64,000 bases of DNA, taken from contig CP136052.1 of assembly GCA_032620915.1 (NCBI GenBank), positions 3,356,001 through 3,420,000 of the forward strand. The letters are read 5' to 3'. The first letter of the stretch is position 1. Each line of letters starts with the position of its first letter. Positions 42,224 through 47,175 of the stretch are shown in pieces. The translations under genes were made by a program, and so were the position numbers. The stretch comes from Oscillospiraceae bacterium NTUH-002-81 (lineage in GTDB: Bacteria > Bacillota > Clostridia > Lachnospirales > Lachnospiraceae). The notes under the pieces are model-generated. The model saw only the letters and a list, made by a program, of their open reading frames with translations. It made no database searches and was not told where the DNA came from.

Positions 42224-43648
42224 ATGGACCGAGAGGCGCTGCTTCTGGAACTGCAGAAAACGCGGCGGCTCTGCCACTGTTTTGAGGATATCATTGAAAA
42301 CCTTCCCGATACCATCTATGTCACCGACGCCCAGGCCCGCACCATGCGGGTGAACAAGGCCTACGAGGAGCTGTCGGGGCTGAAACGGGAGGAGATCCTG
42401 GGCCTGCACATGGGTGATATGGAAAAACAGTACATTTCCCAGTCCGGTTCCCTCCAGGTGCTGAAAACCGGCCAGGAGGCTAATATCGAGCTGGTTTTCC
42501 AGCGCACCAACCGGCACGCCTTCATCTGCAGCAAACCCATTTATGATGAAAACGGCAACCTGGAAATGATCATCAGCAACAGCCGGAATTTTGAAGAGAT
42601 CCAGCGGCTGGAAGAACGGCTGGCCGCTGCCGAACAGCTGGCAGACAAATACCAGGCGGAGATCCGTGCCCTGAAGGAACAGTTCCTGCCCCCTGCCATA
42701 GACATGGTGGCCGAGGACAAGAAAATGCTGGATGTACTCACCCGGGCTTACAAGGTGGCAAAAGTGGATTCCACCACGCTGATCCTGGGCGAGACCGGCG
42801 TCGGCAAGGAAGAGGTGGCCAAATATATCCACGAAAACAGCCCCCGGGCCAAACAGCGCTTCGTCAAGGTCAACTGCGGCGCCCTGTCGGAAAATCTCAT
42901 CGAAAGTGAACTGTTCGGCTACGAAAAGGGCGCCTTCACCGGTGCCAGTAAGACGGGCAAGATGGGCCTGTTTGAGGTTGCCAATCACGGCACGATCTTT
43001 CTGGATGAGATCGGCGAACTGCCGCTGGACATGCAGGTGAAGCTGCTGCGGGTGCTGCAGGATCAGCAGGTAACACGCATCGGCGGCACCGAGCCCGTGA
43101 AGATCGACGTCCGCATCCTTGCCGCCACCAACCGGGATCTGCTGGATATGGTGGAGCACAAGCAGTTCCGGCAGGATCTCTATTACCGGCTGAACATCGT
43201 TCCCATCCACATTCCGCCGCTGCGGGAGCGGCGGAACGATATTATCCCGCTGGCGAAACGGTTCCTGGATGGTCTGAACCAGAAATATCATTTTGAGAAA
43301 AAGCTGTCCAATCTGGCCTACCAGTTTCTGACCGAATACAGCTGGCCCGGCAACGTCCGGGAGCTGAAAAATGTTATTGAACAGGCCGTCATCATGAGCG
43401 AGGACAACCTCATCTCCCTGGATGACCTGCCCCTCATCGGCTATGGCAAGACTCGCACGTTCCAGCCCGATGAAAATGTGAACTTAAAAGAGGTACTGGA
43501 GCAGATCGAATACGAATATATCAGCCGGGCCTATAACCACCACAACAGTGTACGGCAGGCCGCCCGCTCCCTGCATATGAATTACTCCACATTTGAACGA
43601 AAACGCATGTATTACGCAGAAAAATATCCCGGGGCAGCTTCACGCTAA
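42224..43648 (+). CDS. Sigma-54-dependent transcriptional activator (PAS, AAA+, Fis HTH)
   Basis: A 474-residue enhancer-binding protein. The N-terminal PAS domain (about 18-125) has NLPDTIYVTDAQARTMRVN. The central AAA+ domain has Walker A LGETGVGKEEVAKYIHE, the sigma-54 contact loop GAFTGA (YEKGAFTGASKTGKMG), Walker B IFLDEIGEL and the R-finger region. The C-terminal Fis-type helix-turn-helix is SVRQAARSLHMNYSTFERKR. The ATG at 42224 has only a weak ribosome site. An in-frame CTG at 42164 lies eight bases after AGGAG and may be the true start (20 extra residues). Which sigma-54 promoter it serves is not visible in the window. Confidence 0.88.
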   Translation: MDREALLLELQKTRRLCHCFEDIIENLPDTIYVTDAQARTMRVNKAYEELSGLKREEILGLHMGDMEKQYISQSGSLQVLKTGQEANIELVFQRTNRHAFICSKPIYDENGNLEMIISNSRNFEEIQRLEERLAAAEQLADKYQAEIRALKEQFLPPAIDMVAEDKKMLDVLTRAYKVAKVDSTTLILGETGVGKEEVAKYIHENSPRAKQRFVKVNCGALSENLIESELFGYEKGAFTGASKTGKMGLFEVANHGTIFLDEIGELPLDMQVKLLRVLQDQQVTRIGGTEPVKIDVRILAATNRDLLDMVEHKQFRQDLYYRLNIVPIHIPPLRERRNDIIPLAKRFLDGLNQKYHFEKKLSNLAYQFLTEYSWPGNVRELKNVIEQAVIMSEDNLISLDDLPLIGYGKTRTFQPDENVNLKEVLEQIEYEYISRAYNHHNSVRQAARSLHMNYSTFERKRMYYAEKYPGAASR

Positions 43649-44685: not shown

Positions 44686-45885
44686 TCAGAGCACCTCCTT
44701 TTCTGTGCTTCGCTGTCCCATGTGCAGATACCGTTCGCCGACCTGCCCGGTCTCGATGATACGGAACAGATGGTTGAATACGTTTTCCACATGGCTCACG
44801 GTGCAGTCTCTGCCGCCCAGACCATATACCACATTGATGAGCTTCGGCCGGTTTTCCAGATCATAGCAGGCCGCTGCCGTCTCCGCGTAAACCGGGCCGC
44901 CGGTGCCGGAAAAGCCTTCGCTCTTGTCCATCACTGCCACAGCTTTGACATGGGCCAGCGCTGCTGCCAGCTCCTCCGCCGGGAAGGGACGGAACACCCG
45001 CAGCTTGATCATGCCCACCTTTTTCCCGGCGGCACGCATCTGATCCACGCACGCTCTGGCCGTTCCTGCCGTACTGCCGATGAGTACGATGGCTGCCTCC
45101 GCATCCTCCATCCGGTACTCTTCGAAGAAACCGTAATGGCGTCCGAAGGTTTTTTCAAAATCCGCAGCCACGGCAAGCACTGCTTTTTTCGCATTTTTCA
45201 TGGCCACTGCCTGCTGCATTTTGTGCTCCATATAATACGGGCACGTATCATATGGGCCCACCGCCAGCGGATTGTCATGCTTTAACAGATAATTTTCCGG
45301 CTGGTACTCTCCTACGAAAGCCTTTACCTTCTCATCCTCTTCCAGCAGAATATTCTCCACTGCGTGGGAGGTGATGAAACCATCCTGACAGATCATAATA
45401 GGCAGACGCACGTCCGGCGTCTCCGCGATCCGCATGGCCTGGAGATAATTGTCATAGGCCTCCTGGTTATTTTCCGCATAAATCTGGATCCATCCCGCAT
45501 CCCGGGCTCCCATGGAATCGGAATGGTCGTTGTTGATGTTGATGGGGCCGGTGAGCGCACGGTTCACACAGGCCAGGGTGATGGGCAGGCGGGAGGAAGC
45601 CGCCACATACAAAAGCTCATACATAAATGCCAGACCGCAGGAAGAAGTGGCCGTCACCGCCCGGGCACCTGCCGCCTCCGCGCCGATGCAGGCAGACATG
45701 GAAGAATGCTCCGATTCCACCGTTACGAACTCGGTGTTCACTTTGCCATCCGCTACATACTGGGCAAAATACTGGGGGATCTCCGTGGAAGGAGTGATGG
45801 GAAATGCTGCAAACACATCCGGATCAATCTGGCGCATGGCATAGGCAACCGCCTCATTGCCGGACATTCTCTCTCGAATACTCAT
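44686..45885 (-). CDS. 2-oxoacid:ferredoxin oxidoreductase, alpha subunit
   Basis: A 399-residue alpha subunit. The N-terminal pyrimidine-domain motif is AAFPITPSTEIPQYF, followed by TVESEHSSMSACIGAEAAGARAVTATSS, GPININNDHSD and the C-terminal transketolase-like region (LIGSTAGTAR, LRVFRPFPAEEL). In this family, alpha and beta together hold TPP at their interface. It overlaps the delta gene by four bases (ATGA). Gene order gamma-delta-alpha-beta is that of archaeal-type four-subunit POR and VOR enzymes. Confidence 0.9.
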   Translation of the reverse strand: MSIRERMSGNEAVAYAMRQIDPDVFAAFPITPSTEIPQYFAQYVADGKVNTEFVTVESEHSSMSACIGAEAAGARAVTATSSCGLAFMYELLYVAASSRLPITLACVNRALTGPININNDHSDSMGARDAGWIQIYAENNQEAYDNYLQAMRIAETPDVRLPIMICQDGFITSHAVENILLEEDEKVKAFVGEYQPENYLLKHDNPLAVGPYDTCPYYMEHKMQQAVAMKNAKKAVLAVAADFEKTFGRHYGFFEEYRMEDAEAAIVLIGSTAGTARACVDQMRAAGKKVGMIKLRVFRPFPAEELAAALAHVKAVAVMDKSEGFSGTGGPVYAETAAACYDLENRPKLINVVYGLGGRDCTVSHVENVFNHLFRIIETGQVGERYLHMGQRSTEKEVL

Positions 45886-46190
45886 TTTTCTTCCTCCTTC
45901 ACAAAATCAATGGCTTCAAAGGGACATACCTTCCAGCAGATGCCGCAGCCCTTACAATGGTCGTAGTCAAATTCACACCGTTTTCCGGCGGTTACCGGAA
46001 TGGAAGAGTCCGGGCAGAAGGGGGCACACAGCAGACACTGCTTGCATTTCTCCTCGATCCATACCGGCCGGTTGGAACGCCACTCTCCCGTGATGGTCGC
46101 GCGGGCGGTTCCGCCCTCATATACCTCGCCGCCCACGGTCATCTCCTGCCAGGGTGACTGCTCATTAATGTCAGATGCTTTGATTCCCAT
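45882..46190 (-). CDS. 2-oxoacid:ferredoxin oxidoreductase, delta subunit (2[4Fe-4S] ferredoxin)
   Basis: A 102-residue ferredoxin-like subunit. Two [4Fe-4S] motifs are seen: CKQCLLCAPFCP and CKGCGICWKVCP. ATG 46190 overlaps the gamma stop as TAATG, with AAGGAGG about ten bases before; an earlier in-frame start is unlikely. It carries electrons from the catalytic core to free ferredoxin. Confidence 0.9.
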   Translation of the reverse strand: MGIKASDINEQSPWQEMTVGGEVYEGGTARATITGEWRSNRPVWIEEKCKQCLLCAPFCPDSSIPVTAGKRCEFDYDHCKGCGICWKVCPFEAIDFVKEEEK

Positions 46191-46768
46191 TACGCCCGTA
46201 CCTCCTTCATTGCCCGCTTCAGGCACTGCATATTTCCTTCCACCACCTGTGGTTTCGTCGCAAATTTGTGCCGGAAAGATGCTTCCATATCAGCGATAAA
46301 CTGCTCCGGCTCCAGCACCCGGCTCACTTCCACGATAGCCGCCAGCATAGGCGTGTTGGGGAAATATTTTCCAAGACATTCCTCAGAAACCTTTCTCGCA
46401 TCAATGGTATAGACCCTTCCCTCATAGCCTCGCAGCATGGGCCGCAGTTCCGCCGCGCTGCGCTCGGAATTGATGACGATGGCCCCCTCCGGGTTCAGTC
46501 CCTTCGTCACGTCCACCGATTCCAGCAGCGTCTCGTCCACGACCACCACGTAATCCGGCTCATAAATGTTGGAATGGATGGAACAGCGCTCCTCACTGAT
46601 CCGATTGTAAGCCGTGATCGGCGCACCCATACGCTCCGGGCCGTATTCGGGAAAGCCCTGTACATATTTTCCGGCAGTAAATGCCGCATCTGCCAGCAGC
46701 AGACATGCCGTCTTGGCACCCTGTCCGCCCCGGCCATGCCAGCGGATCTCTGTCATATCTTTCATCAT
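46190..46768 (-). CDS. 2-oxoacid:ferredoxin oxidoreductase, gamma subunit
   Basis: A 192-residue gamma subunit from ATG 46768, nine bases after GAGGAGG. The family opening IRWHGRGGQGAKTACLLLADAA and FPEYGPERMGAPITAYNRIS are clear, with YFPNTPMLAAIVEV near the end. First gene of the operon, immediately downstream of a T-box leader, so the complete four-subunit enzyme is under T-box control. Confidence 0.9.
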   Translation of the reverse strand: MMKDMTEIRWHGRGGQGAKTACLLLADAAFTAGKYVQGFPEYGPERMGAPITAYNRISEERCSIHSNIYEPDYVVVVDETLLESVDVTKGLNPEGAIVINSERSAAELRPMLRGYEGRVYTIDARKVSEECLGKYFPNTPMLAAIVEVSRVLEPEQFIADMEASFRHKFATKPQVVEGNMQCLKRAMKEVRA

Positions 46769-46821
46769 CTGTGCGTTCCTCCTCAACTAAAATAGAATAT
46801 GGGATTCTGTAATACAGGATT

Positions 46822-47115
46822 AAAAAAGGCTCCCGTCCCGTAAAAGGACGAAAACCTGTGCAATCGTTATACCACCTGTTACCTGCATACCATCATATGC
46901 GCTTCTGATAACGGGGAATACCGTCAGAACCTACTGTACCGCGGCATCCGCGCTCCCGGGCACCTGCAATCTGGCAGTGCCGCATGGATCCTTTCGGACA
47001 CCATTCCTGTATTTCGGCCTGAAACTCCGGAGTGATTTTCAAAAAAGACTTACTGGTACCGACTTCCACCGTGCGTCGGCTCTCTGAAACGTTCAGTCAG
47101 CTTCTACTCTCTCCA
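46822..47115 (-). promoter_or_regulatory. T-box leader, specifier probably AUC (isoleucine)
   Basis: On the minus strand stem I shows GAGAGAGTAG (AGUA loop), CAGAGAGCC and GGTGGAAGTCGG. The 3' side of the specifier loop reads GAAAATCACTCC, giving ATC-A at 47034-47036 (isoleucine codon plus the conserved A). A stem III-like hairpin (TTCTGACGG...CCGTTATCAGAA) follows, then the T-box AGGTGGTATAACG, whose TGGT fits a tRNA with discriminator A, as tRNA-Ile has. AGG/CCT and ACG/CGT form the antiterminator; CGTCC-TTTTAC-GGGACG with TTTTTT (46822-46827) is the terminator. Uncharged tRNA-Ile should switch the oxidoreductase operon on. Confidence 0.85.
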
Positions 47116-47146
47116 TCTTCATTGTTCTCATCTGAAATTAAAACCT

Positions 47147-47175
47147 ATGATAATCAAAAAAGCAGTATCTGTCAA
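47147..47175 (-). promoter_or_regulatory. Promoter of the T-box/oxidoreductase operon
   Basis: Minus strand TTGACA (47170-47175), 17-base spacer, TATCAT (47147-47152), about 30 bases before the T-box stem I. Confidence 0.75.

Follow-up and report, generated by a model that had tools for sequence, protein, structure and literature searches.

An isoleucine-type T-box leader precedes a 2-oxoacid:ferredoxin oxidoreductase operon in clostridia

Introduction

Ferredoxin oxidoreductases of the pyruvate/2-ketoisovalerate group (POR/VOR) are hard to assign, as their sequences reveal neither the substrate nor the direction of the reaction. A codon-specific switch in front of such an operon names the amino acid that the cell wants from the enzyme. 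An operon of this kind, preceded by a T-box leader, is found in Oscillospiraceae bacterium NTUH-002-81, within a 64,000 nt stretch of contig CP136052.1 (positions 3,356,001 to 3,420,000, called the window below). Which amino acid does the leader sense, and what does that say about the enzyme?

The oxidoreductase operon and its neighbours

The operon lies on the minus strand and is made up of the following features (window coordinates), shown with the gene upstream of it.

46774..46784, minus strand: probable ribosome binding site, GAGGAGGAACG
46190..46768, minus strand: gamma subunit (PorC/KorC type), predicted start at the first ATG, 46768; TIGR02175, 212.1 bits (cut-off 81.1), and PF01558
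45882..46190, minus strand: delta subunit, ferredoxin-like with 4Fe-4S domains, start predicted; TIGR02179, 97.3 bits (cut-off 60.05)
44686..45885, minus strand: alpha subunit, POR_N and PFOR_II domains; NF040682 (PorA_Arch), 486.1 (below the cut-off of 550), and PF01855, 238.1 bits
43755..44684, minus strand: beta subunit, TPP-binding, start predicted; NF008819 (PorB), 346.1 (below the cut-off of 405), and PF02775
47184..48101, minus strand: CbiT-like protein (about 300 aa, no Pfam family), named from a predicted-structure match

Judged from its predicted proteins, the operon is a 2-oxoacid:ferredoxin oxidoreductase of the POR/VOR group, with all four subunits and their domains present (PF17147 was also matched). 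The profile matches confirm the order gamma-delta-alpha-beta directly after the leader, as read previously from the sequence. The gamma and delta subunits exceed the subfamily cut-offs of pyruvate/2-ketoisovalerate oxidoreductases. The best NCBIfam scores of alpha and beta are to pyruvate synthase models, with both equivalog cut-offs unreached, and the archaeal 2-ketoisovalerate oxidoreductase (VOR) alpha model scores 340.4 against a cut-off of 646. Among solved structures, that of POR 9bt4 is nearest to alpha and beta in sequence. The tryptophan in its PINIWNDH motif is replaced in all 54 T-box-bearing loci described below (N in 37, H in 8, C in 6 and A in 3), and likewise in the 121 loci without a T-box (C in 67, H in 23, A in 15 and N in 13), except for three distant homologues in which the motif is absent. 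By these alignments the whole clade departs from POR at this position, switch or no switch.

The genome also encodes two single-chain pyruvate:ferredoxin oxidoreductases (PFORs), with reading frames of 1223 and 1193 residues; the parts scored exceed the cut-off of 911, with 1269 and 1132 bits. Given these two, the gamma-delta-alpha-beta operon need not be the one that handles pyruvate catabolism.

The CbiT-like gene lies upstream of the promoter of the leader and is therefore probably outside the control of this switch. About 180 residues of its structural model (pLDDT 83) match CbiT, the precorrin-6Y methyltransferase (3e05, E 1.1e-13). Such a gene is a conserved neighbour of the oxidoreductase, found on one side or the other of it in 44 of 81 loci, whether or not these have a T-box. 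A sigma-54-dependent PAS activator (window 42224-43648, plus strand) faces the 3′ end of the operon, and members of the same protein cluster adjoin the enzyme in three loci that have no T-box (L092, L093 and L125).

The leader RNA

The elements of the leader, from the promoter to the terminator, are as follows.

47147..47175, minus strand: predicted sigma-70-type promoter, TTGACA (47175-47170), 17 nt, TATCAT (47152-47147), 11/12 matches
46822..47128, minus strand: T-box leader RNA, stem I to terminator (RF00230 and R1)
47080..47086, minus strand: stem I CAGAGAG motif (RF00230 and sequence)
47040-47038, minus strand: GAA of stem I (sequence)
47034..47036, minus strand: specifier codon ATC (Ile) in the stem I specifier loop, GAA-A-ATC-A-CTCC-GGAG (spacing rule and conservation)
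46865..46877, minus strand: T-box sequence, AGGTGGTATAACG (RF00230 and sequence)
46827..46857, minus strand: intrinsic terminator hairpin of 13 pairs, T run to 46822 (terminator prediction)

A covariance search with RF00230 gave a full-length match on the minus strand at 46841-47128 (74.1 bits, E 3.1e-16, model positions 1-219 of 219; E 4.8e-16 over the whole genome). This bears out the sequence-only reading of a T-box leader in front of the operon; the leader given there (46822-47115) falls 13 nt short of the Rfam match at the 5′ end. The score lies under the Rfam gathering score of 93, a curation threshold and not a biological feature, and the leader is consequently absent from a gathering-threshold scan of the window. 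Two sister leaders (L022, 82; L040, 68.1) also score below it, which could be taken to mean that the RNA is not a T-box. Against this stand the E value of 3.1e-16 and the sister leaders that pass the threshold (L024, 93.6; L036, 104.5; L045, 113.6). Nine of the 15 T-boxes of the genome, this one among them, score below 93, and six of those nine precede aminoacyl-tRNA synthetase genes, including tyrS, ileS, cysS, metS and thrS. A covariance model built from 39 motif-found leaders of related operons (R1) gives 213.5 bits, the leader being itself one of the 39 used for training.

Two promoter-like sites occur in the region, against 0.5 in shuffled sequences; the second is on the plus strand (9/12 matches). 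In an alignment of the 39 leaders (A2), the A-G-x-G-A of the CAGAGAG motif is invariant, as is GGTGGTA in the T-box sequence, the leaders having been selected by the motif GTGGTA. The T-box core of the leader reads TATAACG, compared with TACCGCG in the Rfam consensus. The UGGU of AGGTGGTATAACG would pair with the tRNA end ACCA, and would fit a discriminator A; a search for the tRNA-Ile of this genome did not locate it. Both a UGGN sequence and a competing antiterminator and terminator are present. The Rfam alignment has one stretch (TCGTCC, 46851-46846) serving both as 3′ arm of the antiterminator and as 5′ arm of the terminator, an overlap that had been noticed in the sequence and is upheld here.

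Structure prediction with RNAalifold on the 39 aligned leaders found changes on both sides in 21 of 38 pairs, including 9 of the 12 predicted terminator pairs and 5 of the 6 pairs of the upper stem I helix. It also paired the specifier region with the T-box core by six pairs, none of which had changed on both sides, and these were given no weight. Folding of the single leader barely beats shuffled sequences (z -1.42, 9/100 as good). The distance from the start of stem I to the T-box core is 242 nt, compared with 167-199 nt in 39 others (two duplicates), and the extra sequence lies between stem I and stem III (window 46878-47024).

The specifier codon

The specifier was placed by a spacing rule, in which the codon is followed by 5 nt and then by the motif that closes the specifier stem, GGAG or one of its variants TGAG and GAAG. 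The rule was read by eye and was formed on the same 14 other T-boxes of the genome on which its fit is counted; it agrees with the placement given in the available TBDB text (positions 2-4 from the end of the specifier bulge). It fits all 13 of the other T-boxes whose gene reveals the amino acid: TTC for pheS, CTC for leuA, TGG for trpE, CCG for proS, GTA for valS, GCA for an aminotransferase nearest alanine aminotransferase, TGG for a TrpX-like binding protein, TAC for tyrS, ATC for ileS, TGC for cysS, AAC for aspartate--tRNA(Asn) ligase, ATG for metS and ACC for thrS. The fourteenth, with ATC, precedes a CstA-like carrier that reveals no amino acid, and was excluded from the 13. The matches naming the alanine aminotransferase, TrpX, CstA, trpE and ileS are below curated cut-offs, and the last two and CstA are cut by the end of the locus.

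The codon ATC occupies the specifier slot in 54 of 54 distinct T-box-bearing loci, this one included, and Val or Leu specifiers on this operon were found in none of the 54. The base preceding ATC varies (T in 22, A in 21, G in 7 and C in 4). A pattern that leaves the codon free found ATC at the leader in 52 of the 54, the remaining two (L180 and L188) being read by eye; in L053 and L109 it had a second match further upstream. It also matched five loci in which all other tests showed no T-box (L085, GCA; L202, AAA; L212, ATC; L213, GTC; L249, AAA), which were counted as chance.

The codon in the neighbouring frame, AAT (Asn), was ruled out because its first base takes A, C, G and T in the relatives, while ATC stays. 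It is very improbable that the leader is not a T-box or that its specifier is AAT. The previous reading of ATC followed by A is thus upheld by the spacing rule and by the relatives, and in the covariance check against RF00230 the specifier did not move off ATC.

Distribution among related operons

A survey of 397 genomes of the family, together with 80 named-genome loci among the matches listed, gave 110 loci, and 80 further regions brought these to 190 with an alpha gene. The gamma gene was present in 184, of which 180 had 300 nt or more of sequence ahead of it, and removal of five duplicates left 175 distinct assessable loci, three of them distant homologues (40-45% identity). Among the matches listed, 54 of the 175 carry a T-box on the operon, this one included, and 121 carry the same enzyme with no T-box, showing that isoleucine control is not universal. 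Detection was by motif in 39 cases (41 before removal of two duplicates) and by R1 in 15 (11 + 4). An R1 match of 30.1 bits in L117, a Thr-type T-box far upstream, was left out of the count.

Fourteen of the 54 came from the family survey and 40 from named genomes. The titles of the named genomes assign these to Lachnospiraceae, Oscillospiraceae, Butyricicoccaceae, Anaerovoracaceae, Clostridiaceae, Peptococcaceae, Desulfallaceae and Syntrophomonadaceae. Named carriers include Agathobaculum desmolans ATCC 43058 (L053), Butyricicoccus pullicaecorum (L057) and Clostridium aminobutyricum DSM 2634 (L096).

The presence of a T-box is clustered on the tree of the enzyme, with several gains or losses. 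A FastTree reconstruction from 185 alpha rows needs a minimum of 14 changes of the label (8 of them forced by starred branches), compared with a mean of 46.5 after shuffling. Five leaders (L036, L041, L044, L045 and L182) group with leaders of SBF/BASS carriers; the grouping is starred in the quick tree and has 90/91, unstarred, in the careful tree. An AU test on 53 enzyme leaders and 8 others, from which the long-branched L188 was omitted, did not reject one clade of all enzyme leaders (p 0.431), and no claim is therefore made that the enzyme acquired its Ile T-boxes more than once.

The isoleucine pathway in T-box-bearing genomes

The isoleucine pathway was searched for in 49 genome handles, 48 of them distinct (G413 repeats G116), of which 35 bear the T-box; many are metagenome bins, making absences weak. 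IlvA scores above its cut-off in 27 of the 35 and CimA in five others, leaving three (G216, G411 and G424) with neither at the thresholds used; the threonine dehydratase search covered the IlvA family. IlvC scores above cut-off in 30 of the 35 and IlvD in 31.

The genome of NTUH-002-81 itself encodes IlvA and IlvC. The ilvD gene, lying between leuB and ilvB (both named by eye), is split over two overlapping frames (G000:C1:1873134-1874751, L176), and the split is either a real frameshift or a sequencing error. A second IlvD-like gene scores 607 against a cut-off of 618. The canonical isoleucine route thus looks present or nearly so, which means that the oxidoreductase is not obviously needed and would be a second entrance. 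Loss of IlvA and CimA was considered as a general reason for the switch and rejected, since only three of the 35 genomes lack both and NTUH-002-81 has IlvA and IlvC.

Other T-boxes with a matching logic

An R1 search of 12 T-box-bearing relatives returned this operon as the best match in each, and 40 of the 71 further matches in those relatives were examined. In a Desulfoscipio relative (G430), ATC T-boxes precede ileS, an ilvE-ilvB-ilvN-ilvC operon and this enzyme. Two relatives of the same family as NTUH-002-81 (G191 and G202) have an ATC T-box before an SBF/BASS-family carrier (L274 and L278), and NTUH-002-81 has one before its CstA-like carrier (G000:C1:2910329-2910585; L007, L175; 236 bits, cut-off 1188). 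Members of the SBF/BASS and CstA families can transport oxo acids, pyruvate among them, and the Ile-switched ones may be suited to the uptake of acids for isoleucine. No acyl-CoA ligase was found behind the ATC T-boxes of the NTUH-002-81 genome or of the 40 (of 71) non-operon matches.

In three clostridial genomes (G428, G430 and G418; L171, L173 and L149), genes for phenylacetate-CoA ligase lie behind Phe (TTC) T-boxes, the ligases scoring 564-589 bits, below the cut-off of 646. In anaerobes, phenylacetate-CoA ligase catalyses the first step from aryl acids to aromatic amino acids, and this gives a second example of a T-box on acid salvage.

Proposed role of the enzyme

T-boxes open when the cognate tRNA is uncharged (as described in the available TBDB text). 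Uncharged tRNA-Ile would pair with AUC and with UGGU, the antiterminator would then form, and the gamma-delta-alpha-beta operon would be transcribed. Enzymes related to this one are able to add CO2 to small acids. A switch that opens on isoleucine shortage suggests that the enzyme should supply isoleucine, and hence that it would act as a carboxylase with reduced ferredoxin. By the logic of the switch, an acyl-CoA, CO2 and reduced ferredoxin would give a 2-oxo acid used for isoleucine. With a probability of roughly 70%, the operon is turned on at isoleucine shortage and its enzyme works as a carboxylase that provides a precursor of isoleucine. The proposal of a biosynthetic, carboxylating enzyme made from the sequence is kept as far as isoleucine supply is concerned, given the Ile T-box, and is narrowed in that a set of leaders without Val or Leu specifiers points to a precursor of isoleucine alone, more than to branched-chain amino acid synthesis in general.

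Two readings of the enzyme do without a dedicated isoleucine role. Related gamma-delta-alpha-beta enzymes of peptide fermenters are oxidative, and this one may likewise be catabolic, decarboxylating 2-oxo acids for ATP and reduced ferredoxin with the T-box incidental, as the 121 loci without a T-box might suggest. Switching on the degradation of 2-oxo acids at isoleucine shortage would, however, be self-defeating, and the association with the T-box recurs in 54 loci from several families, making a catabolic role distinctly improbable. The enzyme could instead be a pyruvate synthase (acetyl-CoA to pyruvate), with the Ile T-box as a general signal of amino acid starvation. The top NCBIfam matches of alpha and beta agree with this, but pyruvate also feeds Ala, Val and Leu while the specifiers are only Ile, the genome has two PFORs, and the equivalog cut-offs are unreached; we regard it as unlikely.

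For an enzyme that supplies isoleucine by carboxylation, two substrates are predicted as alternatives, close in weight. Propionyl-CoA is our tentative choice, placed slightly above 2-methylbutyryl-CoA because the specifier is Ile only and the protein scores nearer POR than VOR; the three of 35 genomes with neither IlvA nor CimA were also counted in its favour. Propionyl-CoA would give 2-oxobutyrate, followed by the IlvBN, IlvC, IlvD and transaminase steps.

The other substrate, 2-methylbutyryl-CoA, had been named in the sequence-only reading; the link to isoleucine stands, and the Ile-only specifiers and an alpha subunit nearer POR weigh slightly against the substrate itself. Its carboxylation to 3-methyl-2-oxopentanoate, transaminated to isoleucine, would be a salvage bypassing the whole ilv pathway, and is a possible, somewhat less favoured reading. 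The route has long been known in rumen bacteria (Robinson and Allison 1969, as cited in the accessible text of PMC2812497), it would explain a second route beside intact IlvA and IlvC, and the N, H, C or A that replaces the PINIW tryptophan in 172 of the 175 loci may widen the pocket. Conversely, isobutyryl- and isovaleryl-CoA would be expected as substrates too, yet no leader has a Val or Leu specifier; the NCBIfam scores are nearer POR than VOR; and the ATC T-boxes examined have no CoA ligase behind them.

In the broadest reading, to which we give a little less than even odds, this is a widespread clostridial isoleucine-starvation switch on ferredoxin-driven CO2 fixation, and the operon is the missing gene set for turning propionate or 2-methylbutyrate into isoleucine. 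The same reading takes in importers of acids or oxo acids under the same Ile switch, mirrored by the Phe switches on phenylacetate-CoA ligase. The operon offers candidate genes for the step by which anaerobes build propionate or 2-methylbutyrate into isoleucine and, if the reading is true, fills a gene gap for an isoleucine route known from measurements in anaerobes of the gut and rumen. The named relatives that carry the switch (L053, L057 and L096) open this to RNA, enzyme and labelling work.

Comparison with known systems

Searches of the open literature found no report of a T-box on a ferredoxin oxidoreductase, and none of one on phenylacetate-CoA ligase. The main text of the T-box papers PMC2494555, PMC3766115, PMC7778990 and PMC7583486 gave no match for ferredoxin or for oxidoreductase.

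Two enzymes of the same class invite comparison. The archaeal-type pyruvate synthase PorGDAB (NF040682, NF008819; 9bt4) has the same subunit types, but here the equivalog cut-offs are unreached, the PINIW tryptophan is replaced, the genome has two PFORs as well and an Ile T-box stands in front of the operon. VOR (2-ketoisovalerate:ferredoxin oxidoreductase) is also of the same class and subunit types, but the score to it is lower here and there are no Val or Leu specifiers.

The predicted reaction and its purpose are the same as in published carboxylation routes. The conversion of propionyl-CoA to 2-oxobutyrate for isoleucine in anaerobes is described in the accessible text of PMC7476758, which also cautions that a formate-lyase route may explain the data in some organisms, and that of 2-methylbutyrate to isoleucine in the accessible text of PMC2812497. 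As far as those texts go, the published routes rest on older biochemistry, whereas the prediction here rests on a regulatory RNA.

The Phe T-boxes on phenylacetate-CoA ligase (G418, G428 and G430) likewise place a T-box on an acid-salvage enzyme for the matching amino acid. That enzyme, however, activates the acid, and no carboxylating enzyme lies behind it in the two loci examined.

The nearest relatives of the RNA itself are the Ile (AUC) T-boxes before ileS (RF00230), which have the same stem I, specifier loop, CAGAGAG, UGGU, and competing antiterminator and terminator. With R1, the ileS leader of NTUH-002-81 scores 128.6 bits, the top score among the other 14 T-boxes of the genome. The target here is an oxidoreductase operon instead of a synthetase, transporter or ilv/leu gene. 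The RNA is an ordinary T-box, and its target is, provisionally, new.
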